Shown here one piece after another: positions 14,295 through 37,869 of a DNA stretch of 64,000 bases. Under the pieces are notes generated by a model. It saw only the letters and a program-made list of their open reading frames with translations. It was not told where the DNA came from and did not search any database. The DNA is from Nitzschia sp. pyKryTriq1 (taxonomy: Eukaryota; Bacillariophyta; Bacillariophyceae; Bacillariales; Bacillariaceae). Location: the NCBI GenBank assembly GCA_956465555.1, contig OY101122.1:62001-126000 (forward strand), given 5' to 3'. Both the position numbers and the translations under genes were made by a program. Positions within the stretch are counted from its first letter, which is position 1, and every line of letters begins with the position of its first letter.

Positions 14295-17261
14295 ATGGGG
14301 AATCGAAGCCATGCGACTACTGCCAGCACCGACAACGGGGCGCGATCCGTTGGCCTGCTTTTTCTCTCTCTCTTCATTGCTGCTGGAATGGTGTTCAGCG
14401 GAGAGATGATGATTCGGCGGCTTGGTCATGATGATTACGAGTCGTCCTTGGCGAAAACAAACACAGTTCTTGCTGTGCCGCAAGACGAGGCACGAGAAGC
14501 AACGCGAGTCCGACGTCTACTATCCGTGCAGGCTGGAGCATCCTCGGCGCGCGCTCCCAAGGCTAAGATCATCGAGACGTCTGACGAGGACTACGAGAAC
14601 GGGGCACGCTACTCTCGCGTCAGTGATCGAGCCTCTGAAGGTGGTGCGGGAGCTTATGCGGATGCGTTCAGAAGTTCGAATGTTGGTCCCAACGGAAAAG
14701 GCAGCAAGAAGGACTGTAAAGGAAAAGGTGGAAAAGGAAACGGCGGCAAAGGTGGAAAAGGAGAAGACGGCAAAGGCGGAAAAGGAGAAGGAGACGGCAA
14801 AGGCGGAAAAGGAGAAGGAGACGGCAAAGGCGGAAAAGGGGAAGACGGCAAAGGCGGAAAAGGAGAAGCAAGCGGAGGAGCAGAAGGCGGAAAGGGCGAA
14901 ACAAGCGGAGGAGCAGTAGGAGGCGGAGCGGGAAAAGGCGAAACAAGCGGAGTAGGCGGAGCAGGCGGAAACGGAGAAACAAGCGGGGCAGGCGGACAAG
15001 GCGAAACAGGCGGTGCAGCTGTAGAAGGCGGAACAGGCGAAACAGACGGGGCAGCAGTAGGCGGCGGGGCTGGTGGACAAGGCGAAACAGACGGCGCAGG
15101 TGGAGCAGACGACGGGGCTGGTGGACAAGGCGAAACAGACGGCGCCGGTGGAGCAGACGAAACAGGCGGTAACGGCGAAATAGACGGAGCAGGCGGAAAA
15201 GGCGAAACAAGCGGAAGAGGCGAAACAGGCGGGGCAGCCATAGAAGGCGGAGCAGAAGGACAAGGCGAAACCGACGGAGCAGGTGGAGCAGACGAAACAG
15301 ATGGAGCAGACGAAACAGGTGGAAAAGGCGGCAAAGGCGGCAAAGGCGAAACAGACGGAAAAGGAGGAAAAGGGGAATCAGGCAAGGGAGGCAATGTTGG
15401 AGCTGCCTCGAGGACCTCCAGGACCAAGGCAATCTCGTCCACTGCCGAGGACGGAGCTGCCACGTACAGGTATACCCGAGGAAGCCCGAGAGCGCAAGAG
15501 GGAGAGGCAGGTATTGCCTCACGCCTTGACTTTCATAAAGCAAAAAAAGGCGAGACAGGAAAAGGCGAGACAGGAAAAGGCGAATCAGGAAAAGGCGAAA
15601 CAGGAAAAGGCGAGACAGGAAAAGGCGAATCAGGAAAAGGCGAATCGGGAAAAGGCGATTCAGGAAAAGGCGAATCAGGAAAAGGCGCGTCAGGAAAAGG
15701 CGCGTCAGGAAAAGGCGAATCAGGAAAAGGCGAATCAGGCAAGGGCTCTAAGAGCTCCAAGAAGTCCAAGAAGTCCAAAAAGTCCAAGAAATCCAAGCGC
15801 TCCAAGTCCTCCAAGTCTAGCAAATCTCCGGACGACTGCCCAGACGAAGAAGATCCGACCCCATCACCAATTCCTCAGACATCAACAGTTCCGCCAGTAG
15901 CACCAACTGGTCAAGTAGTACCACCGACCCCAGCACCAGTTACAAATACCCCAGCACCAATTCCTCAGACATCAACAGTTCCGCCAGAAGCACCAACTGG
16001 TCAAGTAGTACCACCGACCCCAGCACCAGTTACAAATACCCCAGCACCAATTCCTCAGACATCAACAGTTCCGCCAGAAGCACCAACTGGTCAAGTAGTA
16101 CCACCGACCCCAGCACCAGTTACAAATACCCCAGCACCAATTCCTCAGACATCAACAGTTCCACCACAACCAACTGGTCAAGTAGTACCACCGACCCCAG
16201 CACCAGTTACAAATACCCCAGCACCAATTCCTCAGACATCAACAGTTCCGCCACAACCAACTGGTCAAGTAGTACCACCGACCCCAGCACCAGTTACAAA
16301 TACCCCAGCACCAATTCCTCAGACATCAACAGTTCCTCCGCAACCAACCGGTCAAGTAGTGCCAGGGAGCTCACCACCGACCAATGCACCAGTTACTGCA
16401 ACACCAACCTATGCACCAGTTACTGCAACACCGACCTTTGCACCAGTCACTGCACCGCCGACCTATGCACCAGTCACCGCACCACCAACCTATGCACCAG
16501 TCACTGCACCGCCGACCTATGCACCAGTCACTGCACCACCGACCCCAGCACCAATTGTTACTGCACCGCCGACCTATGCACCAGTAGTTACTGCACCACC
16601 GACCTATGCACCTGTTGTTACTGCACCACCGACCTATGCACCTTTTGTTAGTACTGCTGCACCAGTGACTTCTTCACGACCGACCTGCCCACCGACCCAC
16701 GCACCCGTAGGAGGTACTTCTTTACCAGCCGCGACGCCTCCTCCTACTTGTGTGCCGATTCCCTCGCCATGTACCGGTTCCGAGGAATGTTGCTCTGGTT
16801 GCTGTCATGCAGACACAAAGACATGCTGCGTCCCTGACGGTGCGATTTGCCTTCCTCCTTCTCCTCCTTGTTTTCCTATTCCCTCGCCATGTACCGGTTC
16901 CGACGACTGTTGCTCTGGCTGCTGCAATTCAAACACAAAGACATGCTGCCCCCCAAACCCACAAGAAGGTTTTTGCCTTCCTTCTTCTTCCTCTTCGTCT
17001 TCTTCTTGTACGGCGGATACCCAGCGCTGTGCCAATTCCGAGGACTGCTGCTCCCAATGTTGTAATATGGTCACGAAATTATGCTGCCCCCCTGGCCAAG
17101 CGACGTGTGTTCCTCTTGTTGAGAATCCTACTGCTCGAACAAGATTCCTTTTGGATGTCATCATGAGCAGCGGCAGCACCACCTACGGCAGCACCGAGAA
17201 GAAAGTTGAAAAGGAAGGAGTGAGCTCGGCCACGGCCTCGTCCAGCGTCCTTCGATGGTAG
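14295..17261 (+). CDS. Secreted Lys/Gly/Glu-rich cell-wall-type protein with VLRW tail (paralog 1)
   Basis: 988 residues from ATG 14295; the longer open frame begins at a GTG. Order: signal peptide (about 14-38), RRLL site (73-76), and the module YSRVSDRASEGGAGAYADAF. A Lys/Gly block with one Cys follows, then a long KGGKGE/GETDGAGG region (about 136-370). Next are a second module (YRYTRGSPRAQEGEAGIASR), KGETGKGES repeats (about 415-485), a KKSKKSKKSK stretch (about 487-508) and DDCPDEE (about 513). The stalk is six ~30-residue Pro/Thr repeats plus APVTAPPTY repeats. Three knottin-like motifs (CCSGCC...TKTCC, about 820-938) follow, then RFLLD and VLRW-stop. KXXK clusters and RXL sites are known from diatom silaffins, so a silica or extracellular-matrix role is inferred. 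An adhesive or wall stalk protein is the main alternative. Confidence 0.8.
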   Translation: MGNRSHATTASTDNGARSVGLLFLSLFIAAGMVFSGEMMIRRLGHDDYESSLAKTNTVLAVPQDEAREATRVRRLLSVQAGASSARAPKAKIIETSDEDYENGARYSRVSDRASEGGAGAYADAFRSSNVGPNGKGSKKDCKGKGGKGNGGKGGKGEDGKGGKGEGDGKGGKGEGDGKGGKGEDGKGGKGEASGGAEGGKGETSGGAVGGGAGKGETSGVGGAGGNGETSGAGGQGETGGAAVEGGTGETDGAAVGGGAGGQGETDGAGGADDGAGGQGETDGAGGADETGGNGEIDGAGGKGETSGRGETGGAAIEGGAEGQGETDGAGGADETDGADETGGKGGKGGKGETDGKGGKGESGKGGNVGAASRTSRTKAISSTAEDGAATYRYTRGSPRAQEGEAGIASRLDFHKAKKGETGKGETGKGESGKGETGKGETGKGESGKGESGKGDSGKGESGKGASGKGASGKGESGKGESGKGSKSSKKSKKSKKSKKSKRSKSSKSSKSPDDCPDEEDPTPSPIPQTSTVPPVAPTGQVVPPTPAPVTNTPAPIPQTSTVPPEAPTGQVVPPTPAPVTNTPAPIPQTSTVPPEAPTGQVVPPTPAPVTNTPAPIPQTSTVPPQPTGQVVPPTPAPVTNTPAPIPQTSTVPPQPTGQVVPPTPAPVTNTPAPIPQTSTVPPQPTGQVVPGSSPPTNAPVTATPTYAPVTATPTFAPVTAPPTYAPVTAPPTYAPVTAPPTYAPVTAPPTPAPIVTAPPTYAPVVTAPPTYAPVVTAPPTYAPFVSTAAPVTSSRPTCPPTHAPVGGTSLPAATPPPTCVPIPSPCTGSEECCSGCCHADTKTCCVPDGAICLPPSPPCFPIPSPCTGSDDCCSGCCNSNTKTCCPPNPQEGFCLPSSSSSSSSCTADTQRCANSEDCCSQCCNMVTKLCCPPGQATCVPLVENPTARTRFLLDVIMSSGSTTYGSTEKKVEKEGVSSATASSSVLRW
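15839..16650 (+). repeat. In-frame Pro/Thr stalk repeats of paralog 1
   Basis: About six 84-90-bp units encode an IPQTSTVPP...PTGQVVPPTPAPV pattern. They pass into shorter units encoding APVTAPPTY. The units are near-identical at DNA level, which suggests recent expansion. Confidence 0.85.
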
Positions 17262-18607
17262 GAGGAAAAATGAATAACAAGAACAAACAGAGTTCACGTA
17301 CCGAAAAAGAAAGAAAAAAAAAGAAAGAAAGAAAGAATATATTGGAAAGAAAGAAAACAGAAAGAAAGAAAAGAGAAAGAAAAAACATAAAGAAAGAAAA
17401 ACAGAAAGAAAGAAAACAGAAAGAAAAAACAGAAAGAAAGAAAACAGAAAGAAAAAGAAAACAGAATAAGCGGAATATACCATCTTCATAAGCGCCATAG
17501 ACAATAAAAAGCTAGACAACGACAATGACAACGACGACGACAACAACAACAATATAAAGCCAAAAGAAAATGACCGGCGCCCGATTTCCGATTTTGATGC
17601 GGTAGTATAACAAGTATCATTATCCCAGCGATGGTGGTGGTGGAGGTGGTGGTGGTGCGAATTTCACAACAAGAACAACCACATATATCCTCCTTCTTCG
17701 AGTCCTGTGCTTGCATCCTTCGTCGAGTTCACGCAACGAAAGATCAGGCTGCTGCCAGGAAGCACGTAGTATAGCTAGCTTCTCTTCCATGCATAGCTGT
17801 TGGCAGCGCAGGGTACCGAACGATTTCATACAACTGATTGCTTTGCCTTGCCACAAAAAATTCAACTTGGGTCATGATGTCACGAATGATTTGAGGCCTG
17901 TAGGGAGTGTTTTCTTCACGAAGGTGCTCCATGATGTTGTGGCGGACAAAGGTGTTACTCGGTATGTACATTCCTTTGCAGGAGAGACCGGACACCAGTG
18001 CAGTGCTGTTGGAAGCGTAGTAGTAGTAGTAGTAGTAGTAAAACACATAAATAAAATAGACTACTACTGCTAGAGAACTAGCTTCTACTACTTCTAGCTA
18101 GTAGTAGATAGAAGATGATGAATGAAATTATGTATATTTAGGGGCGTGAACCCGGTATGTATATGCATATGTATATGTATCTTAGTAGTACTACGACACT
18201 ACTACCGGTAGTACCAAGGATGGTACCCACCAGTAGCAGTAGTAGTCTCCGCCTGTCGACAACGACGCGTGATATTATATGCCAGTTGTTCATGTTCATG
18301 TGGATGTGGATACGACTGCTGCTGCTGCTGCTGCTGCTCCTTTGTTCTTACTGCTTGCACCCCGCCGGAACGACGACGACGAGGCAGAGAAGCAAAGCAA
18401 AGCACAAAAGATGATGAACGAGGAACCAATTCAGCATCAGCATCATTCCTGAAGAAAATTGGGATCGTCATCCATTATATTCATCCGTGCACGTCCGATC
18501 TACTACTATCGAAGGATCGATCGAGCAGGAGGAATTCCCTTCGCTTTCCTTTCCTTCCTTCGCTTCATTTGAATATTTCGTTAGTCCCTCGCTAGCTAGC
18601 TAGCTAG
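17262..18607. other. Intergenic region with a polypurine tract
   Basis: From about 17300 to 17470 the plus strand is an almost pure A/G tract (AAAGAAAG) directly after the stop of paralog 1. A possible gene remnant lies at 17620-18046 on the minus strand. The rest is low-complexity sequence. Confidence 0.5.
17620..18046 (-). pseudogene. Possible frame-split gene remnant, unknown
   Basis: Two overlapping minus-strand frames look protein-like. The first has PSNTFVRHNIMEHLREENTP and DIMTQVEFFVARQSNQLYEI. The second, offset frame has CMEEKLAILRASWQQPDLSL. Neither alone makes a complete protein. Joining them near 17800-17830 would give a helix-rich segment, so a frameshifted relic or a missed short exon structure is possible. 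No family is recognised. Part of the N-terminal frame is a codon-repeat tyrosine run. Confidence 0.25.
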
Positions 18608-20825
18608 CTAGTTCAACTTGTAGACATTGGTCCCATCGACATGATCCGTCGCTCCATCATCCAGTACGGGACGAAGTGGTTCTTCGGTCGCATCTTCTTC
18701 ATCCATGGCGGCCGTTTCTTGATGGGCCACATGATGATGCCTCTTGTTCATGTTCATGTTGTTGGCGGAGGAGGATGTTGGTTTGGAGACATGATGATCG
18801 TCGTCGTCGTCGTCGTCGTTGTCTTTATGATCCTCGTCCTTGTCCTCGTCCTTTTCCTTTTTGTTTGGTGGAGTAAAGGCCTCATCCATGGGATCCAAAT
18901 AGACAAGATCGTTTGGATTGAAAAAGTAGGCGACGACGTAAGAACGAAAGGGCACGAGTGCCGCAATCAAGGCCGGAAAGATATAACCTTGAATAGTAGT
19001 TGTTGTAGTAGTTGTTGTGGTAGTAGTAGCAGTATACAAGTACAAAAGTAAAAGTAGGAGGTGTGAGGAGAGTGGATCAAACAAAAAATGAAACAAACGA
19101 ACCAACCAAAATCGAAAACCAAAACCAATAAGAAAACAACGTACCGACGGATGCAAATTGGGATACACCAAAGATGATTGCCGTACATCCGACTTGGGTC
19201 AGTGTAAAGAGTTGAACCGTCCGCCACGATGAGACCTGGGTGACAATGGGTACCGGAGGACGTTTTTTGGGCAACATGGCATTGAACAACAAGCGTTCCC
19301 AAATGGCATTGCCATGCAAGGCGACAATACCCAAATAGAGCAATACACCAAAGAGACTACCGACGGGAATCCATGAAATGGCCGTCATGCAAGCCAATGC
19401 GACAAACATTAGTGCGGCTTGTAAAAAGCCGGACCAACGTTGTTCTTCACATTTCGTATAGACTTCTCGTTTCACTCCATCAATGTATTGATATTCCTTG
19501 GTACAGAGGGATCGTGTATGGAGTGGTGCTTGGGGGATCAAGCCATTGCCGGGTGGTAATCCCAGCATACCACAAGGAAAAAAGGTAATACCTAGAATGA
19601 AAAAGTCCCAATGATAGGCCGGCGGTTTTTTCAAATTGTACTTTGGAAGTTGACTCAATATACTCGAAACATTATGATCAATGAAAAAGAGTAGATAGAA
19701 CATGAGTCCTGGAAAGAGTGCACCAAAGATACCGCGCAAATCGATATCGTAGGTAGGAATGACCCACCAATTCCGATTGGGATCGGTGGGTTGCCAATTC
19801 CACGGTACCACCGGAATGTTGATTCGATCGAGGGCACCGTCTTGATCGACTCCCGGTAGGTACGACAGGGCCGTCACCAGTACCAAGGAAAGGACCATGT
19901 TGTAGGCGGCCAAAAAGGTCCGAACCGAACGGGTCCAATACACCCAGGTATCGGCAAAGTGCAATACCCAACAAATCCCGCATGTCAAGAGTCCAATCAA
20001 GAGACCGGCATAGGCTGCCGCTCGATCTTCCGGAGTGGTGGTGTGTTCATAGTCGAGCAAGTGAATGGGAACGATGAGATCTCGAATGCCCGAATAGATA
20101 AAGGCGGATGCAATAAAGAGTTCAAAGATTTGCAACGTAAAGGGTGTAATGTGCCATACCAGATTCACCACGCCAATCATGGCGGAAATCATATGCAACA
20201 ATCCGGCCCAAATACACGTCCACCAAAAAAAGGAAAAGTAATCGGCATCAAAGACATCCGATGCCAATTGATAGGACGTTCCCAACAATATCGCGACGGG
20301 ACCCGTCACTCCCATAATGACCAAGGGTTGTCCGGCAAAGACGGCATAAATGATACCAATAGTACCGGAGCTCATGAGTGTTTCGGCCACCGCCAATTTG
20401 CCTTGTGTTTGTCGATCGAGCAATTCGGCAAAAATCAGGGCCGGAATGAGTTGGACCATGAATGCATACACTACGGCATTCAGGACGGTAATGATGCGAC
20501 CATTGCCGGGTTGGACCTTCCAATCATCGAGATAGTACGGAGCACGAGCTTTCAAATCGCCCATCATGCCCGTCATACATTGAATCATCGTGCTGGGCTC
20601 TTTCTTCGTCTTCATGAAGGAGTTGTTGTTGTTGTCATCATCATCACTGCCACTGTTGCTGTGAGAAGACGACTCGGGAGGAGTTCTAGTACCCTTTCCC
20701 CTTCCCCTCCCAGCACCCGTGTTGGGTGTGGGATGAAACTTGATATTCTTCTCCGGATCCTCGGCGGCGCCATCAGCATCATGGGGAGACGGCGGACTGG
20801 CCGATAACGTGACTTCTTGAGACAT
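18608..20825 (-). CDS. SLC4-family anion/bicarbonate transporter, two exons
   Basis: Exons 19145-20825 and 18608-18987 join across a 157-nt intron (donor GTACGT, acceptor TTCAAG) to give 686 residues. The join rebuilds SVGYIFPALIAALVPFRSY, the usual last membrane segment. Residues 1-100 are disordered and the multipass core begins near 108. Landmarks are GPVAILLGTSYQLA (about 175-188), FFIDHNVSSIL (380-390), KPPAYHWDFFILGI (400-413) and GLPPGNGLIPQAPLHTRSL (422-440), followed by EEQRWSGFLQAAL. These match the SLC4/BOR superfamily, which moves bicarbonate, borate or other anions with Na+, H+ or Cl-. The C-tail is acidic and His-rich. In diatoms SLC4 proteins take up bicarbonate; borate export cannot be excluded. 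It lies in the same orientation as the SulP gene behind it. Confidence 0.93.
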
Positions 20826-22660
20826 TATTCTTATTGTTCTTGTTCTTGTTCTTGTTATACGTACAAGAGTAGGTTAGAGTAGGTTAGTTGATGATGAGTA
20901 TGGTATTAGGTAAAATGGCGTTATCGGTGAAACTTCATTTTCCATCATCATCATCCCCTTCATCACACTTATTCTTCCTCTTCATCATCGCGCATTATTC
21001 TTCTTCATTCATTATCCGACCTCTCTTCGCGAGGTTCTTATTTACGTATGTATCATCTATCTTGTGGTTCTCTGCGTCCGCTCATTGGGCCTCTATTTTA
21101 CTTTTTCGTACATATTGTACGTAGAACTCTACGTAAACATCCATTATTCATTCTACTCGCACACTACGTACAAGTACAGTACCGCCGGTACACGCGCATC
21201 GCGATCGCCACGCACCACGTCATTAAAGTCCAACGTATGCCTACGACATTCACTAGGACATGGGAGGGCAACGGATCTTTATTACCTACATCTACATTAC
21301 TGTAGATATGTTAATGCATGCGTCATCGCGCACATTCACAATAATGGAAGTGTGTGTTCTGTTGTTCTTCTTGGATGGACCTCGCAAGCAATAATAATCA
21401 TCGGCACTTTCATACACGCACGCAAGCACACACAAAATCGTTCTTTGGACTGATCTATTTCCGACCTCGTGTACGTACGAATCTTGCTTCGCTTCGGGAT
21501 GGGTTTGTTTGTTTGGAAAGAAGAATTATTATTATTCTTCATCGATCGATCATCGATCTTCGCCTTCATCTTGGTTTTGCATCTCTCAACTTTCTACATT
21601 ACTGGTACAGTACTATGATACAGTATTATTTGGTACTGGTCCATGCGGTATTACTACTACGGGCGGTAGATAGTACTTGCATGTACTACCGGTACTGTAC
21701 CGGTACTGTACCGGTACTATTTTACAAGATGATGATAAGTATACTGTATATCTATCTATGGTACTACTATCTTCGTTTGGATTTTGTTGCGAACCCATGC
21801 ACGAACCCCATGCACGAATGAATGAATGGTGATGAATGGAGACGAATGGAGACGAATGGAGAGACGAATGGAGACGAATGAATGGATGGATGGATGAATG
21901 ACGAACCAACAAGCTGCTGCAACAACAACAACAAGCCAATCCTGCATCAGCATCGATGGATGATGATACTAATAACTAGTACTACCGGTACTTGTTTTAC
22001 CGCATCGGTACTTGTACTAGTAATACCGTAGTAGTACTACTATTACTGTAAACGAGGAGGATGACGATGATGATCATGATCATGATCATGATGATCCGAT
22101 CTGGCGTACTACTAATTGTACAGTCTACAACAAGAAGCTAGTCGACGACGACGACGACTCGTACAGTACGGAATCAGGACGAATGATGAATCATGAAAGA
22201 AGAAGCAAGTGCTGACACATACTACTAGTAGTAGAGAAATATTGAACTCTCTACTACTACTCTACTAGAGTGCTAGAGTAGTCGACGAGGAGTAGTCGTA
22301 CAACTACTACTCTAGTAGTAGAGTATGGTGCAGTACCGGACAAGTACTTGTACTGGTGGTACTTTCTCTACTACTACTAGTAGAGTAGCTACTACTAGCT
22401 AGGTCGCTTGATACAGTACAATGCGATTTGTTATCATACAACAACAACTGCTACTACTCGAGAGTCGTGCTACTCTACTAGTAGTAGAGTACCTACTATT
22501 TACGCTGCTTTAGCTTATTGGTAGTAGTAGTCTACTACTAGTAGTGGTAGTATGAACATCACAGCTACCCAGCATAACCGACACTCCACCACTGTAATAC
22601 CAACGTATCATTATTATCGTTGTTGTTGTTGCAGTCAATACTACTACTTCTAGTAGAGTA
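20826..22660. other. Intergenic region, 1.8 kb
   Basis: No credible gene. It includes the leader of the SLC4 gene, a GAATGGAGAC repeat patch (21825-21900), GTACCGGTAC words (21660-21720, 21980-22030) and CTACTAGTAG/TAGAGTA words (22220-22560). Open frames in it are unsupported. Confidence 0.45.
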
Positions 22661-25474: not shown

Positions 25475-26379
25475 GATAAGGTGAGGCTGTCGCTGATGTT
25501 GCTATTATTGTTGTTGTTTTTATCGATAGTATTGGAATAAAGAAAGAGGAGTGCGAGTAATACTGTATGATGAATGAATGAATGATGATGTCTCTCGCGC
25601 TAGCTAGCTGTCTTCTTTTCTGTGACTTGCTTGTTGGGAGTGTTCGGGTTGAAAAGATCCGCCGCCCCGCGCCAGTACGTGGACCGTACACGTACCCTCC
25701 TTTTTTGGACTTCGCATTTTCGCAATCGCACGCTATTTGTACATTCTGTACCGCATCGCTACAAGTACATACATACATAGAAATAATGCTACCAACACCA
25801 CAAAATACAAAACTTCCACCAATACTGTACACACGTTCCGCCCATCGCCCGCCCGGCGCGTTCCGAGTGTTGGCTAGCGGTGTGGCTGGCCATGGCTGAA
25901 GCAAAAAGCAGGGACCTTCGGGAATTCGCCATTTTTGGCGAATTCCCGAAGGTCCCAGGCAGGCAGGCAGGCAGGCAGGCAGGAGGAGTCGTCGTCGGGT
26001 AGAACGCAGCGCGACTATCATGCTTGTGCCCCGGTACTGGTACACTGGTACTGGACGTGCCGGTACAGTACGAGTACACGAGGAGTATTCTCGTACGAGG
26101 GACACGAATATTCGACATAAAAAAATCATTGGTCCTCAAACAGGTCATGGGCTCTAAGAGATGTCGAGACGTGGATAAAAGATGGGGGATATCTCGCGAT
26201 ACGCGATACGTACGACGAGTAGTACTGTAATGATGATAAAATATAGAGCCACACGGCGGAACGATGGAAAGAAAAAAAAAACGACGCGATATTATGAGAT
26301 AATAATATGCATGAGAGGATGTGATAACATCGAACGACGGCATCATCATAATATAACACAATACACCACAATCACAAGA
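25475..26379. other. Divergent intergenic region between SulP and HGH1
   Basis: The two flanking genes are transcribed away from each other, so this 905-bp region should hold both promoters. It contains a long perfect hairpin (25911-25956) followed by a CAGG array (25957-25983), and GGTACTGGTAC words near 26030-26060. No credible gene. Confidence 0.5.
25911..25956. repeat. Perfect 21-bp-arm hairpin with TTTT loop
   Basis: The left arm 25911-25931 begins GGGACCTTCGGGAATTC. The right arm 25936-25956 is its exact reverse complement. The loop is TTTT. A CAGG tandem repeat follows immediately. Confidence 0.95.
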
Positions 26380-28275: not shown

Positions 28276-28705
28276 AAGTTCAGGGCAGAATAATGCAAGG
28301 CATACAGAATGGATAATGAAGAATGCACGACGACGATATCAATAATAGATAATAAATGATGTACATATCATTCTCTAGTTACGTTCCAACATTATGAAAT
28401 AGCCTGGATACTCATCATTACTACTTCCAACCAAGAAGAACTTTCTGTTCCTCATAGTGATAGTAGTAGTATGCTCCTCATCAGGGAATAAACTAACTGG
28501 CAACTTCCAGTTCTCTTCTTCTAGTAGTATACTATAATATTTGTAAATTTGTTGGTGCTGCTCTGCTGGTGCTACTACTTCTACTTTCATCATTACTTCT
28601 TGCGACTGCTGCCAATAAAAAAGCGGCCGGCGGCAGCAGACCTGCTTGCTTATACTTCGTTCGTTTCTTGTTGTTTACTGTTCTTGCCGTTCGCTCTCCC
28701 TACTA
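28276..28705. other. Convergent intergenic region between HGH1 and paralog 2
   Basis: The 430-bp gap between two stops. A 72-residue minus-strand open frame sits at 28375-28593. The last ~100 bases resemble the 3' flank of paralog 4. Confidence 0.45.
28375..28593 (-). CDS. Small open reading frame, doubtful
   Basis: A 72-residue ATG-started frame with non-repetitive, mixed composition (YKYYSILLEEENWKLPVSLF, MRNRKFFLVGSSNDEYPGYF), unlike the repeat-derived frames of other gaps. No family is recognised and there is no signal peptide. It could be a small gene, an exon fragment or part of the 3' UTR of paralog 2, which is read in the same direction just upstream. Confidence 0.25.
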   Translation of the reverse strand: MMKVEVVAPAEQHQQIYKYYSILLEEENWKLPVSLFPDEEHTTTITMRNRKFFLVGSSNDEYPGYFIMLERN

Positions 28706-30316
28706 TTACCATCGAAGAACACCCGAGGTGGTGGTGGTGGTAGTACTGCCGTCAAGTAGAAATCTTCTAGTGCAACTTCCCCTAGCTTGGCATGTACCAC
28801 TAACACAACAGCCCGAACAACAGCCATTGTTGTTTTTACAAGTCTGACCATCAAGCGTTGTCGTAGCACATGCCACCGCGACAGGGCATGAATCACCCGG
28901 GTTGACACATTGATTATTTGCATTGTTGCAACAGCAACTACAACAATCCGCTGACTGGAACTTGTTTCCCCCCACGGACGCTGGTTCGAAACCAGAGGGA
29001 GGAAAGCATTTACTGTTGACGCCATTCGCAAATCCATAATCCACGATGACGGTATTCCCATTTCCGTCCACTTCTACTACCCTCCCCTCTACTGCGGTTG
29101 CCGCATTACACCACGAACCTATTTTCCCATTCAAATCAGCATCAGCATCTCCCGGCCAGGATCTGGTTGGATCGACGCTACATGTGAACGGTTCCTTCGT
29201 CGGTGGTGAAGTGATGGGTTTGGCAGTGGGTGTTGCAGTGCTGGGTTTGGCAGTTGGTGTAGCAGTGCTGGGTTTGACAGTTGGTGTGGCAGTGCTGGGT
29301 TTGGCAGTCGGTGTGGCAGTGCTGGGTTTGGCAGTCGGGGTGGCAGTGCTGGGTTTGGCAGTCGGCGTGGCAGTGCTCGGTTTGGCAGTCGGTGTTGACG
29401 TAATTGGTGCACCTGTTGTTGGTGCTGGTCCACCGCCTAAAGTCGGTGCTCTAGTCGGTGGTGAGGTATTTGAACCTTCTGGGCAGTCTCTTTTTTTAGC
29501 TTTGCTAGACTTGGAACTTCCTTTTCCTGACTTTCTTGATCCTTTACTATCTCCTCTTCTTGAGGAGTATTCAAGATAGTTAGACGCATATACTCCACCA
29601 CCACCAGTGATTGCTCGAGGACTTGTGCGAAGATAATATTCTGGAATATCTTCTTCATCTTCCTCCAAGTGTTGGTAGTATTCACCGTCTTCTTCTATTT
29701 CTCCCTGGGATGACATTCTTAATTTGTCACCCCCTTTACTTTTCCCGCCTTGTTTGCCTCCTTTCCCAGCCTTGGCTGTTCCTTTCCCAGCCTTGGCTGT
29801 TCCTTTTCCAGCCTTGCCTTTTCCGCATCCTCGGCGGCTTTTGCTGCTGCCTTTGCCACGATGCTTGGAATAGGCGTAATCGAGATCACTGTAATATTCT
29901 CCAGTGTTATCTCGATATACCGCTTTGTAGCTTTCACGTTCATAGACACTGGTGGTCGTGCTGCTGGCGGACTCTTCATACTCATCTTCGGCCACATTCT
30001 CGACGGGAGATGTCGTCGGATCGTCTTTCATTTTCATCTTCGTTTGAAGACTTCGACGATAGACGACGACATCATGACCATCATCTTCGCCCTCTTCCTG
30101 GTGTGGTTTCTCTTTTGGTTCAACAACAGAATGACGACGACCACGACTAGTAGCATCAGCAGCAGCACCCTCCTCACCACGTTGTTGCGGCTGCTCTGCT
30201 TGTTGTCCTCGGACCAGCGTTCTTCGTGCATGAGTACCGTGGTCGCATAGTAGTACCCAAACAATGAAAAGAATGATGGAAACGATGATGTGTTGTCGTG
30301 AGGATAGTATCTTCAT
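28706..30316 (-). CDS. Secreted Lys/Gly/Ser-rich protein with VLRW tail (paralog 2)
   Basis: 536 residues from ATG 30316. Signal peptide 1-30 is followed by an RTL site (32-34) and RRSL (87-90), both RXL type. Module one (ESYKAVYRDNTGEYYSDLDY, 128-147) leads into GKGSSKSRRGCGKGKAGKG and AKAGKG repeats (154-192). Module two (EYYLRTSPRAITGGGGVYAS, 226-245) leads into a Lys/Ser block ending RDCPEG (276-281). A stalk of PTAKPSTA repeats follows. The Cys domain combines KFQSADCCSCCCN...NQCV with a CCSGCC knottin-like motif, then RRFLLDG and SGVLRW-stop. The N-terminal two thirds are nearly identical to paralog 3, while the C-terminal domain matches paralog 4, so the gene is a mosaic. A wall or silica-matrix role is inferred from the composition and RXL/KXXK features. 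Confidence 0.8.
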   Translation of the reverse strand: MKILSSRQHIIVSIILFIVWVLLCDHGTHARRTLVRGQQAEQPQQRGEEGAAADATSRGRRHSVVEPKEKPHQEEGEDDGHDVVVYRRSLQTKMKMKDDPTTSPVENVAEDEYEESASSTTTSVYERESYKAVYRDNTGEYYSDLDYAYSKHRGKGSSKSRRGCGKGKAGKGTAKAGKGTAKAGKGGKQGGKSKGGDKLRMSSQGEIEEDGEYYQHLEEDEEDIPEYYLRTSPRAITGGGGVYASNYLEYSSRRGDSKGSRKSGKGSSKSSKAKKRDCPEGSNTSPPTRAPTLGGGPAPTTGAPITSTPTAKPSTATPTAKPSTATPTAKPSTATPTAKPSTATPTVKPSTATPTAKPSTATPTAKPITSPPTKEPFTCSVDPTRSWPGDADADLNGKIGSWCNAATAVEGRVVEVDGNGNTVIVDYGFANGVNSKCFPPSGFEPASVGGNKFQSADCCSCCCNNANNQCVNPGDSCPVAVACATTTLDGQTCKNNNGCCSGCCVSGTCQARGSCTRRFLLDGSTTTTTTSGVLRW

Positions 30317-31603
30317 TCTTCTTTCGACTTTTCTCTTGGTGTTGATCTTGTTTTTCTAGTAATGGTTGTTGTGTGGTTGTAGTAGAGGAATGATTAAAAT
30401 TGTCGTTTTTGTTGTGGCACGCTGCAATGCGTTGGACGGAGGACGTGAAAGCGTTGAGATTCGGCTCAACTGATGATCGGAAAATGTGGGCATAAATAAA
30501 CCTAGTGATGCAAGTCGACAGGTTCGCGTTATGTTATTATTTAGAACCAAATTTCATCTTGCTGACTGCACATGCTCGCTGTACATAGACGAACTCACTC
30601 GATCGCCGATCGACCGGTGGGAGGAGTGGTAGGTGCGCGACTGGAAAGGTTCCGTTGAGGGATGTTTTAGGTTGTCTTCCATTTAATGGCGACGAAGGAT
30701 GCAAATGCTACATAACGAACATCTCCCGTTTCCAATCCAAATTAATAAGCCTCTCTATTCTTCCATGATTGATTCAATAAAGAGTAAGCATGATGCGGAA
30801 ATATCACGAGCTACAAGTACGGTACGTACACCGGTAGGATGTTACTACTGTACCTGTACTGAACTGCATTGTACCTCTCTATTGGTGCGAGAAAGAGACT
30901 TACCGCATCATCATCATCATCATCATCATTCCCCTATGCTGGAGTATTGGTAACGCAGCTACATTCATTCATTCATTCATTCATTCATTCATTCATTCAC
31001 ACGATCATCATGGTCACTTCCAAAACCGAAGAAGCAATATTATAACCGTCATCAGCCAGCCAGCCAGCCAGCCAGCCAGTAATGCGAGTAGTCGCCGTCA
31101 AAGCAATGCTATTATACTGTAATATATCTGCACATGGCGCCGCGCTTCGTCCTTCGGTGAAACACTTATACCACAACACAACACAACACAACACAACACA
31201 ACATCCAGCATCCAGCCATATTATCCAGCCATATTATCCGGCCATCTTATTTCTACCAGGAGCCTGCAAGAATATGCGGCGCTAGCAAGAGGATGACCAC
31301 AGGATGACGACGACGACGACGACGACGACGCGATGATGATGCGCTTATTTGTTATCAGATGATTCATGTGTTTTTCTTCTTTACACGACGCACCGCAAGA
31401 ACAAGCAGCAAGTCACGATAATATTATGCTCCTCGCATAAATATATGAACAATGTGGATGCGATGGACGCGTGGCTGGTTTATTGCTGGCTATAATATCT
31501 ATACATGTTTTGTGCGCTGTTGCTTGCTTGACCGCCTACTATGATATACTGTACTAATACGAGTACTCAAGTTTCGTCGTCGGATGTGGCTGCGTCGCTC
31601 CCT
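29402..31603. repeat. Segmental tandem duplication, copy 1
   Basis: Copy 1 covers the 5' two thirds of paralog 2 and about 1.29 kb of its upstream flank. It matches 32932-35617 in the same orientation almost base for base outside indels. The shared block starts at ATTGGTGCACCTGTTGTTGG and ends at GGATGTGGCTGCGTCGCTCC. Confidence 0.9.
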
Positions 31604-31979
31604 CTGTTTCAGTGGCTTTCTTTGGTGGTCCCACCACCCACGGCAAAAGGTCTACTTCTGTAGAGTGCTGCTGCTGTCATTGGTGTAATATAGGATTAGC
31701 GGGATGAACTCCTCTATTAGATGATGTAGTAGCTAGTAACAGTAATAGAGTAGCAGTAGGAACAATTCACTATTAGAGTAGAGTAACTCTTCGTAATCAG
31801 CAAGCCTTACTTATTTTAATAGTAGGCTGTCTGTCGTCCAAGCAAAGCAAAAGATACAATTTCGACAACCATTATTTTTTATCTTGTTTACTATGTTCTG
31901 TTATTATCGCCGGCTAGCAACCAGCTACTACTACTATGGCCAATGTAAATGCTATAATGGGGCGCATCCTCCTTTGGTA
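30317..31979. other. Intergenic region, upstream flank of paralog 2
   Basis: Up to 31603 this is duplicated at 34080-35617. It carries microsatellites: CATT repeats (30961-30998), CCAG repeats (31055-31079), AACAC repeats (31170-31202) and CGA repeats (31301-31331). After 31604 it is single-copy sequence leading to the stop of paralog 3. No credible gene. Confidence 0.5.
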
Positions 31980-34046
31980 TTACCATCGAAGAACACCAGA
32001 TGCCGAGGCCGGGCTCGTTCCTTCGTCTTCCTCTTCTTCTACTTCTTCGGTGCCGTCCAATAGGAATCGCCTTAAATTGCCGGTGCAACCAGCGCTTTGA
32101 CGAAAGTTTGTACATTTGCCGTTCGAACCATTTATGGAGGCACAGCATGAACAACATTCAGTTGCAGGGAAGAGAACGCCGGTGGAACCACCAGGGGTTT
32201 CAGTCGTAGTGGTCTGCTTACCTGATGCAATCCCATAATTAAACCCATCCTTAATAACTGTAGGTGTAGAAGGGGGCGACGGGGCGGCACAAAAGTCTGT
32301 AGGGGATGCTGTTGGAATTCCTCTGTTGGGACAGCTGGTCGGTTGTGGAGTCGGACTAGGAGTTGCTTGCGGTGCTGGAGTTGTTTGCGGTGCTGGAGTT
32401 GTTTGCGGTGAAGGAGTTGCTTGCGGTGCAGAAGTTGCTTGCGGTGCTGGGGTTGCTTGCGGTGCTGGAGTTGCTTGGGGTGCTGGGGTTGCTTGGGGTG
32501 CTGGGGTTGCTTGTGGTGCAGGAGTTGCTTGTGGTGCAGGAGTTGTTTGCGGTGCAGGAGTTGCTTGCGGTGCAGGAGTTGCTTGCGGTGCTGGAGTTGC
32601 TTGCGGTGCTGGGGTTGCTTGCGGTGCTGGAGTTGCTTGCGGTGCTGGAGTTGCTTGGGGTGCTGGGGTTGCTTGGGGTGCTGGGGTTGCTTGTGGTGCT
32701 GGGGTTGCTTGCGGTGCTGGCGTTGCTTGGATTGGTGCTGGAGTTGCTTGTGGTGCTGGGGTTGCTTGGGGTGCAGGAGTTGCTTGCGGTGCTGGAGTTG
32801 CTAGCGGTGCTGGAGTTGCTAGCGGTGCAGGAGTTGCTTGCGGTGCAGGAGTTGCTTGTGGTGCAGGAGTTGTTTGCGGTGCAGGAGTTGCTTGCGGTGC
32901 TGGGGTTGCTTGCGGTGCTGGAGTTGCTTGGATTGGTGCACCTGTTGTTGGTGCTGGTCCACCGCCTGAATTTGGTGCTCTAGACGGTGGTGAAGTAGTT
33001 GAAACGTCTGGGCAGTCTCCTTTTTTAGCTTTGCTATACTTGGAACCTCCTTTCCCTGACTTTCTTGATCCTTTACTATCTCCTCTTCTTGAGGAGTATT
33101 CAAGATAGTTAGACGCATATGCTCCACCACCACCAGTGATTGCTCGAGGACTTGTGCGAAGATAATATTCTGGAATATCTTCTTCATCTTCTTCCAAGTG
33201 TTGGTAGTATTCACCGTCTTCTTCTATTTCTCCCTGGGATGACATTCTTAATTTGTCACCCCCTTTACTTTTCCCGCCTTGTTTACCTTTGCCTTTACCT
33301 TTGCCTCTTTTACCAGCCTTGGCTGTTCCTTTTCCAGCCTTGCCTTTTCCGCATCCTCGGCGGCTTTTGCTGCTGCCTTTGCCACGATGTTTGGAATAGG
33401 CGTAATCGAGATCACTGTAAGATTCTCCAGTGCTATCTTGATATGCCGCTTTGTAGCTTTCACGTTCATAGACACTGGTGGTCGTGCTGCTGGTGGACGC
33501 TTTATATTCATCCTTACTGCTGCTTTTGATACCACCACCACTCGCCGAAGTAGTACTGTCATTGTAGTATCCTTCTTCTTGACCATCATTATCATCATCA
33601 TGTATATCACGATCATCATGGTCCTCATTCTCCTTTTGTTCGTCGGCCACATTCTCGACGAGAGATGTCGTCGGATCGTCTTTCATTTTCATCTTCGTTT
33701 GAAGACTTCGACGATAGACGACGACATCATGACCATCATCTTCGCCCTCTTCCTGGTGTGGTTCCTCTTTTGATTCATGTTCAGTAGTAGCAGTTGTTGT
33801 TGTTCCGTCACCCTCGCCAATAGTACCACCTGCAGCAGCACCGGCAGCAGCAACAACAACAGAATGACGACGACCACGAATAGTAGCATCAGCAGCACCC
33901 TCCGCACCACGTTGTTGCGGCTGCTCTGCTTGTTGTCCTCGGACCAGCGTTGTTCGTGCATGGGTACCGTGGTCGCATAGTAGTACCCAAGCAATGAAAA
34001 GAATGATGGAAACGATGATGTGTTGTCGTGAGGATAGTATCTTCAT
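31980..34046 (-). CDS. Secreted Lys/Gly/Ser-rich protein with VLRW tail (paralog 3)
   Basis: 688 residues from the ATG at 34046, which is shared with paralog 2; an in-frame ATG at 34079 could add 11 residues. It has the same signal peptide, the RRSL site, both aromatic/Arg/Gly modules and both Lys blocks. The first block is GCGKGKAGKG and GKGKGKQGGK; the second ends GDCPDV. Compared with paralog 2 it has two acidic or Ala/Gly-rich insertions and its first RXL is changed to RTTL. Its stalk is about 35 units of ATPAPQ. The Cys domain is short (ECCSCCASINGSNGKC), followed by RRFLLDGTEE and SASGVLRW-stop. The stalk probably grew by repeat expansion. A role in the extracellular matrix or frustule is inferred. 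Confidence 0.8.
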   Translation of the reverse strand: MKILSSRQHIIVSIILFIAWVLLCDHGTHARTTLVRGQQAEQPQQRGAEGAADATIRGRRHSVVVAAAGAAAGGTIGEGDGTTTTATTEHESKEEPHQEEGEDDGHDVVVYRRSLQTKMKMKDDPTTSLVENVADEQKENEDHDDRDIHDDDNDGQEEGYYNDSTTSASGGGIKSSSKDEYKASTSSTTTSVYERESYKAAYQDSTGESYSDLDYAYSKHRGKGSSKSRRGCGKGKAGKGTAKAGKRGKGKGKGKQGGKSKGGDKLRMSSQGEIEEDGEYYQHLEEDEEDIPEYYLRTSPRAITGGGGAYASNYLEYSSRRGDSKGSRKSGKGGSKYSKAKKGDCPDVSTTSPPSRAPNSGGGPAPTTGAPIQATPAPQATPAPQATPAPQTTPAPQATPAPQATPAPLATPAPLATPAPQATPAPQATPAPQATPAPIQATPAPQATPAPQATPAPQATPAPQATPAPQATPAPQATPAPQATPAPQATPAPQATPAPQTTPAPQATPAPQATPAPQATPAPQATPAPQATPAPQATSAPQATPSPQTTPAPQTTPAPQATPSPTPQPTSCPNRGIPTASPTDFCAAPSPPSTPTVIKDGFNYGIASGKQTTTTETPGGSTGVLFPATECCSCCASINGSNGKCTNFRQSAGCTGNLRRFLLDGTEEVEEEEDEGTSPASASGVLRW
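32344..32935 (-). repeat. ATPAPQ stalk-coding minisatellite of paralog 3
   Basis: About 590 bp of 18-bp units (plus-strand sense GGAGTTGCTTGCGGTGCT) encode the six-residue ATPAPQ stalk unit. Sporadic variants encode T, L, S or IQ. Confidence 0.9.
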
Positions 34047-35022
34047 TCTTCTTTCGACTTTTCTCTTGGTGTTGCTCATCTTGTTTTTCTAGTACTAATG
34101 GTTGTTGTGTGGTTGTAGTAGAGGAATGATTAAAATTGTCGTTTTTGTTGTGGCACGCTGCAATGCGTTGGACGGAGGACGTGAAAGCGTTGAGATTCGG
34201 CTCAACTGATGATCGGAAAATGTGGGCATAAATAAACCTAGTGATGCAAGTCGACAGGTTCGCGTTATGTTATTATTTAGAACCAAATTTCATGTTGCTG
34301 ACTGCACATGCTCGCTGTACATAGACGAACTCACTCGATCGCCGATCGACGGGCGGGAGGAGTATGTAGTAGGTGCGCGACTGGAAAGGTTCCGTTGAGG
34401 GATGTTTTGGTTTGTCTTCCATTTAATGGCGACGAAGGATGCGAATGCTACATAACGAACATCTCCCGTTTCCAAAACTGCTTATCTATTCTTCCATGAT
34501 TATTAATAAATAAAGTGCAATAAGGATCGTTCGTCGGACATGGAATAAATAATAGTCACATGTGGTGCTCAATAACAACGTTGAGACGATGACTCAATGA
34601 GAATATCATTGAGTGCACAGTTTTGCGTCATGAAATTTCTACCCGGCTATTATTGAACTAGGTAAATACTAATTAGAACTTCAACCAAGCTTCAACGTCA
34701 TGTAGTAGTGCCATAGTAAAAAGCCTCTCTATTCTTCCATGATTGATTCAATAAAGAGCAAGCGCGCATGATGCGGAAATATCACGAGCTACAAGTACGG
34801 TACGTACACCGGTAGGATGTACTACTGTACCTGTACTGAACTGCATTGTACCTCTCTCTATTGGTGCGAGAAAGAGACTTACCGCATCATCATCATCATC
34901 ATCATTATTCCCCTATGCTGGAGTATTGGCAATGCAGCTACATTCATTCATTCATTCATTCCTTCATTCACACGATCATCATGGTCACTTCCAAAACCGA
35001 AGAAGCAATATTATAACCGTCA

Positions 35023-35067
<45 letters not shown>

Positions 35068-35617
35068 AATGCGAGTAGTCGCCGTCAAAGCAATGCTATT
35101 ATACTGTAATATATCTGCACATGGCGCCGCGCTTCGTCCTTCGGTGAAACACTTATACCACAACACAACACAACACAACACAACACAACACAACATACAG
35201 CATCCAGCCATATTATCCAGCCATATTATCCGGCCATTTTATTTCTACCGGGAGCCTGCAAGAATATGCGGCGCTCTGCCGTATAGAGAGAGCATCAAGA
35301 GCATGACCACAGGATGACGCTGACGACGACGACGACGACGACGCGATGATGCGCTTATCTATTTGTTATCAGATGATTCACGTGTTTTTCTTCTTTACAC
35401 GACGCACCGCAAGAACAAGCAGCAAGTCACGATAATATTATGCTCCTCGCATAAATATATGAACAATGTGGATGCGATGGACGCGTGGCTAGTTTATTGC
35501 TGGTTATAATATGTATACATGTTTTGTGTGCTGTTGCTTGCTTGACCGCCTACTATGATATACTGTACTAATACGAGTACTCAAGTTTCGTCGTCGGATG
35601 TGGCTGCGTCGCTCCCT
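32932..35617. repeat. Segmental tandem duplication, copy 2
   Basis: The partner of 29402-31603, in direct orientation. It differs by insertions within the coding part (about 33520-33660 and 33780-33860) and by a ~235-bp insertion upstream of the gene (about 34493-34730). Flanking words, microsatellites and the end point are conserved. Confidence 0.9.
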
Positions 35618-36180
35618 TTGACACCTACTAGCCGCCAGCATACAGCATCCTATCCCAATCGCATCCGAAGCAGAATCAGCATGATCATGACATGACCGAC
35701 GCGACACCTCCTGCTATTATACACTCGCATTCTTCTTGTGTGCCAGTGGAAGCGGCATCATCAGCATCAGTGATATTATTATTGTTATTGTTATTGTTAT
35801 CATGATTATATTTTTCTCCTCATCGCTATCAACAACAACAACAACAACAACATGACCATGATAATCTTGACTCCGCAGCAGCAGCAGCAGTATACTTACT
35901 AATGATGATGATGATGATGATGATGAGCGCGGTGGAGTCTCCTCTTGTATTTCTTCAAAGTATGTATTACTTGTTGTTTTGTTGACCGTGCATCCATCCT
36001 CCATGTCATGATATATTCCGGGAGGATACATAATACCGCACAGCATAAGCGACTACTACTACTAGGTATTTATTTCCTTTCGAACTTTTCTTGTTGAGTT
36101 GAGTTGTTGTTCCAAGAAGTATATCGTTCATTAGCTATTTTCTTGTTGTCTATTGTTCTTGCCATTCGCTCTCCCTTCTA
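34047..36180. other. Intergenic region between paralogs 3 and 4
   Basis: It consists of the duplicated upstream flank (to 35617), including an insertion at about 34493-34730, and then single-copy sequence with CAT/ATG and CAG/GTT microsatellites (35750-35930). No credible gene. Confidence 0.5.
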
Positions 36181-37869
36181 TTACCATCGAAGAACACCCG
36201 AGGTGGTGGTGGTGGTGGTGGTGGCAGATTTCGTTGTTCTATTCTCTTTTCCTTTCTTGCCCTCCACTAGGAATCTTCTATCATCCACCGGGGCAGGGCA
36301 AAAGTCACCTGGCGAAACGCACTGATTGTTTTCAGTGTTGCAACAACAAGAACAACACGCATCCGACTGGAACTTTTTATTGGTCTCGTTGTCAGGATTC
36401 TGAGCTACAGGCACCTTTCCTTCAGGAAGGAAACATTCACTGTTAGCGTTCCCGTTCTTATATCCGTAATTCGGAATGAATGGTCTTCCGTTTACCGTAG
36501 TAGTTGGTGGAGCTGACGGGCCGCTGGAGTTGCAAAAATTGTTTATGTCTCCATTCTTGGTCGTTGGAGATGGTGTTCCATATGTTCTTGGTGATGGGGC
36601 GGCACACGTGAAGGTAGTAGGTATGGGAGCAGCAGTTGCTTGGGGTGCAGGAGTTGCTTGGGGTGCTGGAGTTCCGGCACCTAGAGTTGGTGGTGGAGTT
36701 GCTTGGGGTGCTGGAGTTGGTGTTGGAGTTGCTAGGGGTGCTGGAGTTGCTTGGGGTGCTGGAGTTGGTGGTGGAGTTGCTAGGGGTGCTGGAGTTGCTT
36801 GGGGTGCTGGAGTTGGTGGTGGAGTTGCTAGGGGTGCTGGAGTTGCTTGGGGTGCTGGAGTTGGTGGTGGAGTTGCTAGGGGTGCTGGAGTTCCGGCACC
36901 AAGAGCTGGTGCTGGAGTTGGTGCTGGAGTTCCGGCACCAAGAGCTGGTGCTGGAGTTGGTGCTGGAGGTGTTTCCTCTGGGCAGTCTCTCTTAGATTTG
37001 CTTGACTTGGAGGACTTGCTAGACTTGGAAGCCTTTGCTTTTGCATTATGGAATTCAGCTCGTGCGGTAATACCTGCCTCTCCCTCTTGCACTCTCGAGC
37101 TTCCTCGGGTGTACCTGTACGTGGCAGCTCCGTCCTCGGCAGTAGACGAGATAACCTTGGTCCTGGAGGTGCCACCACCATTGCTGCTGCCCCCCTCTCC
37201 CTTTGGGGTAGCGGCAGGCAGCCTCCTCTTCTTGCGTCTTTCGTCCGCTCCCTTGCCTTTTCCTTTTCCTTTTCCTTTGCCGCAGTTGGAAGATTTGGAG
37301 GACTTGTTGATGCCCTTTGTTCCACCATTCGAACTCCTGAAGGCGTCGGCATAGGCTCCTCCGCCACCTTCGGAGGCTCGAGCACTGATGCGAGAATAAC
37401 GTTCCGCACCACCTGCTACTGCTGAGCGGTCCGCGTCCTCATCCCCTTCGCCATGATGAAGGATGGTCTCATAATCGTCAGAGTACTTGCTCGAAGTCTC
37501 GAGGATTTTAGCCTTGGAAGCACCCGCCGATTCTCCAGCCTTCTCGGATAGTAGACCACGGAGTCGCGTAGCTAGTTCATCCTCCTCCTTTTGTCCTTCC
37601 GGCAAAGCAAAACTGCTTGTTTTCGACGACGAAAAGAACGACGATGACGTCTCCTCGTAGTCTTCTTTCATGCCAGCACCAGGAGCATCATCATGATGCT
37701 GAAGTCGAGAAGAAGTGGTCATGACCACCTCTCCGCTAGACAATCCAGCAACAAGAAGTAGAGAGAGAAGAAGCAGGGCGACAGATCGCGCCCCGCCCGT
37801 GCTGCAGCCGACACCGTTGCTGGCAGCAGCAGTCGGCTGGATCAGATTCCTGGAGCTCATCATCTTCAT
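36181..37869 (-). CDS. Secreted Lys/Ser-rich protein with pentalysine cluster and VLRW tail (paralog 4)
   Basis: 562 residues from ATG 37869; the frame extends upstream only from a TTG. A signal peptide (about 27-46) is followed by RGLLSEKAG (104-112), which aligns with the RRLL site of paralog 1. Module one YSRISARASEGGGGAYADAF (158-177) leads into a Lys/Gly block with one Cys (NCGKGKGKGKGKG). Module two YRYTRGSSRVQEGEAGITAR (251-270) leads into an exact KXXKXXKXXKXXK cluster (279-291) and RDCPEE. The stalk is PAPTPAPALGAGT and TPAPQATPAPLA repeats. The Cys domain has KKFQSDACCSCCCN...NQCV, then RRFLVEG and SGVLRW-stop. Pentalysine clusters direct silaffins to silica in a model diatom, so silica association is a reasonable inference here. 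Confidence 0.82.
   Translation of the reverse strand: MKMMSSRNLIQPTAAASNGVGCSTGGARSVALLLLSLLLVAGLSSGEVVMTTSSRLQHHDDAPGAGMKEDYEETSSSFFSSSKTSSFALPEGQKEEDELATRLRGLLSEKAGESAGASKAKILETSSKYSDDYETILHHGEGDEDADRSAVAGGAERYSRISARASEGGGGAYADAFRSSNGGTKGINKSSKSSNCGKGKGKGKGKGADERRKKRRLPAATPKGEGGSSNGGGTSRTKVISSTAEDGAATYRYTRGSSRVQEGEAGITARAEFHNAKAKASKSSKSSKSSKSKRDCPEETPPAPTPAPALGAGTPAPTPAPALGAGTPAPLATPPPTPAPQATPAPLATPPPTPAPQATPAPLATPPPTPAPQATPAPLATPTPTPAPQATPPPTLGAGTPAPQATPAPQATAAPIPTTFTCAAPSPRTYGTPSPTTKNGDINNFCNSSGPSAPPTTTVNGRPFIPNYGYKNGNANSECFLPEGKVPVAQNPDNETNKKFQSDACCSCCCNTENNQCVSPGDFCPAPVDDRRFLVEGKKGKENRTTKSATTTTTTTSGVLRW

Follow-up and report, generated by a model that had tools for sequence, protein, structure and literature searches.

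Mosaic genes of a Nitzschia cluster encode a putative family of silaffin- and cingulin-like secreted proteins

Four genes, here named A, B, C and D, lie close together in the genome of the diatom Nitzschia sp. pyKryTriq1 and encode proteins that are built from the same parts in the same order. They are located in a stretch of 64,000 nucleotides, hereafter referred to as the window, which covers positions 62,001 to 126,000 of contig OY101122.1 (C8) in assembly GCA_956465555.1 (40.65 Mb, 20 contigs). The order of parts, the Lys clusters, the single Cys in each Lys block and the candidate RXL sites at both ends can be read directly from the sequence, as can the history of the genes. That the genes of the cluster are mosaics is new here. 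As judged from their sequences, proteins A to D probably form a lineage-specific, silaffin- or cingulin-like family of secreted proteins of the diatom cell wall or biosilica.

An earlier reading of the DNA, made from the letters alone (the sequence-only reading), had proposed four paralogous genes with a common order of parts. Both proposals hold: all four are uninterrupted open reading frames (ORFs), and alignment and landmark scans of the four proteins gave one order of parts throughout. Each protein opens with a hydrophobic N-terminus, an RXL motif, a module, a Lys block with one Cys and a second module. These are followed by a Lys/Ser block, the motif DCP(E/D), a Pro/Thr/Ala stalk, a region of Cys pairs, the motif RFL(L/V) and VLRW followed by the stop codon. 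From the end of the N-terminal hydrophobic stretch up to the stalk, the only two Cys of every protein are that of the first Lys block and that of DCP. The signal peptides of the sequence-only reading are kept here as candidates, as judged by hydrophobicity, since a hydrophobic 15-mer is found at the N-terminus of all four proteins (Kyte-Doolittle values of 2.51-3.34). Each protein has one RXL motif in its N-terminal part and one near its C-terminus, at aligned positions, where cleavage is putative. The R and L of the proposed RXL site are invariant in the alignment of the four; RXL is frequent by chance, so the support for the site is positional. The best-scoring stalk units are of 90 and 27 bp in A, 27 bp in B, 18 bp in C and 48 bp in D, all multiples of three. 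The isoelectric points of the whole proteins are 5.71 (A), 8.72 (B), 6.08 (C) and 9.08 (D), and each has 1-4 Trp residues.

The core of the module, Y-x-R-x-S-x-[RK]-[AV], occurs eight times, twice per protein, and nowhere else among the 56,264 residues of the six-frame ORFs of at least 60 residues in the window. This motif was written from the same eight occurrences, so the count measures specificity and is not an independent discovery. The eight modules, with boundaries set by hand, were compared in pairs against 2000 shuffles of one partner (28 tests, uncorrected). Six of them, A1, D1, A2, D2, B2 and C2, fit the full consensus that the sequence-only reading had given to all, and 13 of their 15 pairs have scores reached by at most 7 of the 2000 shuffles. 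The exceptions are D2-B2 (52 of 2000) and D2-C2 (265 of 2000). Modules B1 and C1 keep the core only; they match each other, but neither matches any of the other six, for which 134 to 1882 of the 2000 shuffles score as high. Windows of 30 residues over the modules of B and C contain 7, 5, 6 and 5 Tyr (17-23%), beside the Lys blocks.

Clusters of Lys are found in all four proteins. The published pentalysine rule, five non-consecutive Lys within 12-14 residues (as quoted in PMC5501833 and PMC9650480), gives 3 clusters in A, 5 in B, 5 in C and 6 in D. Among the other 74 ORFs of the window that start with ATG and have at least 100 residues, three have such a cluster; two of these overlap A and one overlaps D, out of frame. 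Five Lys fall within 14 residues 16 times in A, 6 in B, 10 in C and 8 in D, counts that were equalled in 0, 2, 0 and 0 of 1000 shuffles, respectively. Repeated K[SG][SG]K pairs, 1-6 residues apart and with overlaps counted, number 10 in A, 1 in B and 2 in D. The sequence-only reading had paired each module with a polycationic block. This holds loosely: the 60 residues that follow module 1 are net positive in all four proteins (Lys/Arg of 15, 18, 20 and 17 against Asp/Glu of 9, 2, 2 and 3 in A to D), but the whole inter-module stretch of A is acidic overall.

The sequence-only reading had given all four proteins one Cys-rich domain. The region can be aligned among B, C and D, with identities of 44% for B-D and 33% for B-C, but a genome query with the region of A, which has three CC-x2-CC repeats, matched none of these three genes. 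Against Pfam, the Cys regions had no match above cut-off. The Toxin_21 family, which met the region of A below the cut-off (E 0.042), was rejected as a chance likeness of Cys spacing.

DNA comparison within the cluster reveals that the two halves of a gene can have different relatives. Positions 29403-31606 of B and 32932-35620 of C, which include the 5' flank and the first half of each gene, align in four gapped pieces of 90.9-97.1% identity. Over 277 codons of the first half, synonymous (dS) and nonsynonymous (dN) divergence are 0.057 and 0.048. The match stops at 29403 in B and 32932 in C, where each gene borders on its stalk minisatellite (29199-29397 and 32359-32930, respectively), and beyond these points, 3' untranslated region (UTR) included, the DNA comparison found no match between the two genes. 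As a genome query, the C-terminal region of B recovers D (40% identity, E 1.5e-15) but misses C. The closest likeness between B and D is at their very ends, where positions 28664-28744 and 36139-36219, comprising the last 12 codons, the stop and 42 nt of the 3' UTR, are 93.8% identical over 81 nt. This tract begins after RFL, not at the stalk. B and D also match less strongly at the DNA level in a 94-nt part of the Cys region (74.5%) and in 102 nt around the place where the second Lys block ends (73.5%), and their first halves are saturated at synonymous sites. C and D have a related stalk repeat, with several matches at 72-88%. The mosaic is best explained, we infer, by unequal exchange at the stalk for B and C, together with a short conversion or a retained end for B and D. 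If the non-independent tails of B and D are counted as one, VLRW has been retained in roughly three contexts: A, C and B/D.

The duplication of B and C is tandem and segmental; it takes in more than 1 kb of the 5' flanks, which have the same order of small repeats (CATT, CAGC, CACAA and ATCCAGCCATATT). Besides this duplication, the sole match between upstream regions is one of 25 nt between A and D (84%, E 0.001).

As evidence of constraint, which favours the wall reading, no finite dN/dS in 15 comparisons of region pairs is above 0.84, the value for B against C over the first half; the minimum, 0.09, belongs to module 1 of A and D (25 codons). Synonymous saturation left the first halves of B-D and C-D without a ratio. 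Values that include the stalk, such as the dS of 1.30 between B and C over their second halves, are untrustworthy because of the repeat alignments.

Five protein segments served as queries against the genome. Three came from B (its N-terminal half, its C-terminal region, and module 2 with the Lys block), one from D (the N-terminal half) and one from A (the Cys region). Counts from these searches are lower bounds, and introns were ignored. The sequence-only reading had called the family distinct, and this stands within this genome, where the protein searches confirm no member outside the cluster. Single-protein searches gave, in addition to the cluster, two weak outside matches, both rejected on reading the ORF. 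The match on contig C4 (E 0.046) is in a different frame from a long overlapping ORF, which we take to encode a Pumilio-type protein, and the match on contig C9 (E 0.03) has other Cys repeats and is presumably Notch-like. Two weak DNA matches were also set aside: one on contig C11 (C11:203500-209500, 1945-3528) belongs to a Ser/Pro-repeat protein that is not a family member, and one on contig C13 has no ATG ORF of at least 180 residues. The C11 protein has a short KGEGGKG stretch (KGEGGKGEGGKG) that resembles the first block of A.

The tail was sought across the genome with a degenerate S[GS]VLRW-stop pattern, which takes a second-place Ser as AGY codons only and misses tails with other residues before VLRW. 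It matched 7 times, against 2 for the reversed control; when the matches are read by codon, the tail is encoded by the four that lie in the cluster and by none of the remaining three. A genome search for CCSxCC was uninformative, being swamped by microsatellites (14,036 matches against 7,211 reversed). None of the four proteins has a Pfam-A match above cut-off (best E 0.32) or any NCBIfam match at E 0.01, and nothing meaningful came from searches of the PDB (best E 0.33). A single scan of prokaryote contigs, made with the N-terminal half of D, gave 589 pattern matches, and a single scan of viral contigs, made with the Cys region, gave 312; neither confirmed a relative. A literature search, with supplements and most subscription papers outside its scope, met no description of the module or of the VLRW tail.

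Compared with known systems, the family resembles several in make-up. Silaffins in the biochemical sense are proteins obtained from biosilica dissolved in HF that have modified Lys and phosphoserine. The silaffins and silaffin-like proteins of Thalassiosira pseudonana (T. pseudonana) are secreted and have RXL sites, pentalysine clusters and, in some cases, PT repeats. However, they make up an operational class, and the repeated module, the DCP motif and the VLRW tail of A-D have no counterpart in the parts of PMC5501833 and PMC4557024 that were available. The cingulins CinY2 and CinW2 of T. pseudonana alternate K-S/G-S/G-K Lys regions with aromatic stretches, as the family does (PMC9650480, PMC4557024). 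Nevertheless, cingulins are highly repetitive alternations of KXXK and W/Y-rich segments, while A-D have only two alternations, a comparison to which no published threshold was applied (PMC4557024). Y-type cingulins are approached by the Tyr-rich modules of B and C, but not by the Tyr-poor modules of A and D, and for the Pro/Thr stalk, the Cys-rich region and the fixed tail no cingulin counterpart is described in the available parts of PMC9650480 and PMC4557024. Another T. pseudonana protein, Tp12162, which is found in girdle biosilica, has a lysine-enriched region and a C-terminal RXL after 410 of its 415 residues; it differs from A-D in having the 'unknown motif' of Y-type cingulins, considered here by name and not by its letters, and no Cys region is mentioned in what was available of PMC9650480. 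The pleuralins of Cylindrotheca fusiformis, compared by description, have a Pro-rich part followed by a Cys-rich part, but the latter is made of PSCD repeats of about 90 residues and no Lys blocks are mentioned in the available text (PMC4557024). Lastly, AC3362 of Amphora coffeaeformis, a secreted cell-wall protein, has KG-dipeptide repeats and is likewise rich in Lys, Pro and Tyr; also by description, its contents of Lys (15.5 mol-%) and Tyr (8.0 mol-%) exceed those of each of A-D (PMC4220933).

The likeness to silaffin traits was borne out, as the Lys clusters, RXL motifs and PT repeats match those of published silaffin-like proteins. In T. pseudonana, 8 of 10 new KXXK proteins have pentalysine clusters and 10 of 10 have RXL, and PT repeats are found in 14 silaffin-like or KXXK proteins (PMC5501833). 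RXL has been put forward as a general processing site (PMC4557024), and pentalysine clusters and lysine-enriched regions have been linked to frustule targeting (PMC9650480). The wall or silica-matrix role suggested by the sequence-only reading is partly supported: it fits the pentalysine clusters of all four proteins and a genome in which a search for the silicon-transporter family found 8 loci, each above the curated cut-off. The same search of 14 control genomes gave none above the cut-off and a sub-threshold match in one.

Several points weigh against a silica-associated role. The modules of A and D contain 2 Tyr each (7% of the 30-residue windows), C fails a KXXK screen for want of a repeated K[SG][SG]K pair, and the inter-module stretch of A has 26 Lys against 44 Asp/Glu. 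The dN/dS of the first halves of B and C is weak evidence of constraint. A published cingulin Lys region, used as a query without a positive control, found no match. Furthermore, deletion of both lysine-enriched regions did not mislocalise CinW2 1-187, two of the four CinW2 regions taken singly were mainly intracellular, and a CinY2 fragment without a lysine-enriched region was still at the frustule (PMC9650480). Since targeting can do without Lys regions and is not always achieved by them, the silica reading calls for caution.

The strongest competing explanation, which we nonetheless consider unlikely, is that A-D are surface adhesive or mucilage proteins with no role in silica, in which Lys and Tyr would adhere, the Pro/Thr stalk would be glycosylated and the Cys-rich ends would be cross-linked into strands. 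Lys/Tyr-rich secreted proteins of Amphora, often with Pro-rich modules, were sought as adhesion candidates (PMC4220933), and the Tyr-rich modules of B and C adjoin Lys blocks. However, the adhesion candidate AC3362 proved to be a wall component that hot sodium dodecyl sulfate extracted little (PMC4220933), and the pentalysine clusters of A-D match silica-targeting peptides (PMC5501833, PMC9650480). Distinctly improbable is a role as organic matrix proteins of girdle or plate, cingulin- or pleuralin-like, that bind finished silica and are disulfide cross-linked without forming silica. The exactly two Cys of each Lys half, the Cys-rich C-terminal half and the pleuralin combination of a Pro-rich domain with Cys-rich repeats would agree with such a role, but pleuralins are described in the available text without Lys blocks (PMC4557024), and this likeness is one of description. 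That the frames are compositional coincidences or decaying repeats, as the low-complexity minisatellites that fill much of each protein might suggest, is hardly credible, given four open frames kept from a dS of 0.06 to saturation, stalk units divisible by 3, motifs common outside the repeats and VLRW-stop in all four.

In the silaffin- or cingulin-like reading that we prefer, the precursor would enter the endoplasmic reticulum and be cut at the N-terminal RXL site. Clustered Lys may be methylated or modified with polyamines and Ser phosphorylated, and in the silica deposition vesicle the two Lys blocks would bind silica or cause it to precipitate. Both modules, which in B and C are rich in Tyr, could act as spacers or self-association patches, while the two Cys of the Lys half could link one chain to another. 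A disulfide-rich C-terminal knob would be extended by the Pro/Thr/Ala stalk, which may be hydroxylated or glycosylated. A cut after RFL would release a C-terminal peptide of 16-36 residues ending in VLRW, which may be a sorting peptide or a pro-peptide.

A bolder scheme, and quite a doubtful one, is a modular system of wall proteins in which a silica-binding half, made of two pairs of module and Lys block with one Cys in each, and a Cys-rich C-terminal half are re-paired between linked genes at the minisatellite stalk, the VLRW peptide, cut off after RFL, being a sorting tag for the silica deposition vesicle that every recombinant must keep. The close tract of B and D is in the tail and 3' UTR, not the stalk, so the break between B and C alone supports exchange at that place. 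The routing of proteins to the diatom silica deposition vesicle is partly explained; lysine clusters act in some cases and other signals act as well. A short C-terminal peptide beside an RXL site, kept across dissimilar ends, would be a small candidate targeting signal. The B-C pair, with a shared first half, a different second half and a frame-preserving repeat, suggests a route by which fast-changing wall proteins could diversify.

Table 1 Coordinates of genes A-D and their parts in the window, with the basis of each assignment.
Feature	Position	Strand	Description or basis
Gene A	14295-17261	+	988 residues, uninterrupted ORF
A N-terminal hydrophobic stretch, candidate signal peptide core	14349-14393	+	Kyte-Doolittle 2.51 over 15 residues
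A RRLL, candidate RXL cleavage site	14511-14522	+	alignment and landmark scan
A module 1 (YSRVSDRASEGGAGAYADAFRS)	14610-14675	+	core motif, shuffle tests
A inter-module stretch	14676-15470	+	Lys/Gly block with one Cys, then Gly/Glu/Thr-rich repeats; acidic overall
A module 2 (YTRGSPRAQEGEAGIASRLDFH)	15471-15536	+	core motif, shuffle tests
A Lys/Ser block 2, ends DCPD	15537-15845	+	landmark scan, Lys counts
A Pro/Thr stalk minisatellites	15858-16642	+	90-bp x5.7 and 27-bp x9.7
A Cys region, three CC-x2-CC repeats	16746-17108	+	no similarity to B-D detected
A RFLL, candidate C-terminal RXL site	17142-17153	+	landmark scan
A VLRW-stop	17247-17261	+	tail pattern search
Gene B	28706-30316	-	536 residues, uninterrupted ORF
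B RSL, candidate RXL site	30047-30055	-	landmark scan
B module 1 (YERESYKA...), Tyr-rich	29879-29944	-	core motif only
B module 2 (YLRTSPRAITGGGGVYASNYLE)	29570-29635	-	core motif, shuffle tests
B DCPE	29477-29488	-	landmark scan
B stalk minisatellite	29199-29397	-	27-bp x7.4
B Cys-pair region	28769-29182	-	alignment with C, D
B RFLL	28754-28765	-	landmark scan
B VLRW-stop	28706-28720	-	tail pattern search
Gene C	31980-34079	-	699 residues, uninterrupted ORF; candidate ATGs 34079 and 34046
C RSL, candidate RXL site	33702-33710	-	landmark scan
C module 1 (YERESYKA...), Tyr-rich	33405-33470	-	core motif only
C module 2 (YLRTSPRAITGGGGAYASNYLE)	33099-33164	-	core motif, shuffle tests
C DCPD	33006-33017	-	landmark scan
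C stalk minisatellite	32359-32930	-	18-bp x31.6
C Cys-pair region	32076-32333	-	alignment with B, D
C RFLL	32058-32069	-	landmark scan
C VLRW-stop	31980-31994	-	tail pattern search
Gene D	36181-37869	-	562 residues, uninterrupted ORF; upstream in-frame ATG at 38109
D RGLL, candidate RXL site	37549-37560	-	alignment and landmark scan
D module 1 (YSRISARASEGGGGAYADAFRS)	37333-37398	-	core motif, shuffle tests
D module 2 (YTRGSSRVQEGEAGITARAEFH)	37048-37113	-	core motif, shuffle tests
D DCPE	36976-36987	-	landmark scan
D stalk minisatellite	36634-36892	-	48-bp x5.5
D Cys-pair region	36280-36606	-	alignment with B, C
D RFLV	36265-36276	-	landmark scan
D VLRW-stop	36181-36195	-	tail pattern search

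Genes B, C and D are consecutive on one strand (-), and A is on the opposite strand (+), 11 kb off. The interval between A and the B-D cluster contains an HCO3-transporter gene, pieces of a sulfate transporter and a DUF383/DUF384 gene. Contig C1 has four silicon-transporter loci within a span of 42 kb (275839-317295) and a fifth at 79892-81523. Silicon transporters reportedly occur outside diatoms too, according to a coccolithophore study. In the window, positions 5864-8182 (+) encode a leucine-rich repeat protein with an internal hydrophobic stretch and a Thr/Ser-rich end followed by SCSCCQTCC, so that Cys-pair ends are not unique to the four-gene family. The window also has three further repeat arrays: an 84-bp repeat (SFRYDPRFKIGWNDRSLKNKRTSQGTSN; 48981-49187, 2.5 copies, 100% match) within an open frame, a 48-bp repeat (STLNLRNPLVLRNPSM; 44820-45016, 4.1 copies, 97%) partly within a minus-strand open frame, and a 10-bp array (ACAACACCAC) of 35.8 copies at 53759-54116 (97% match).

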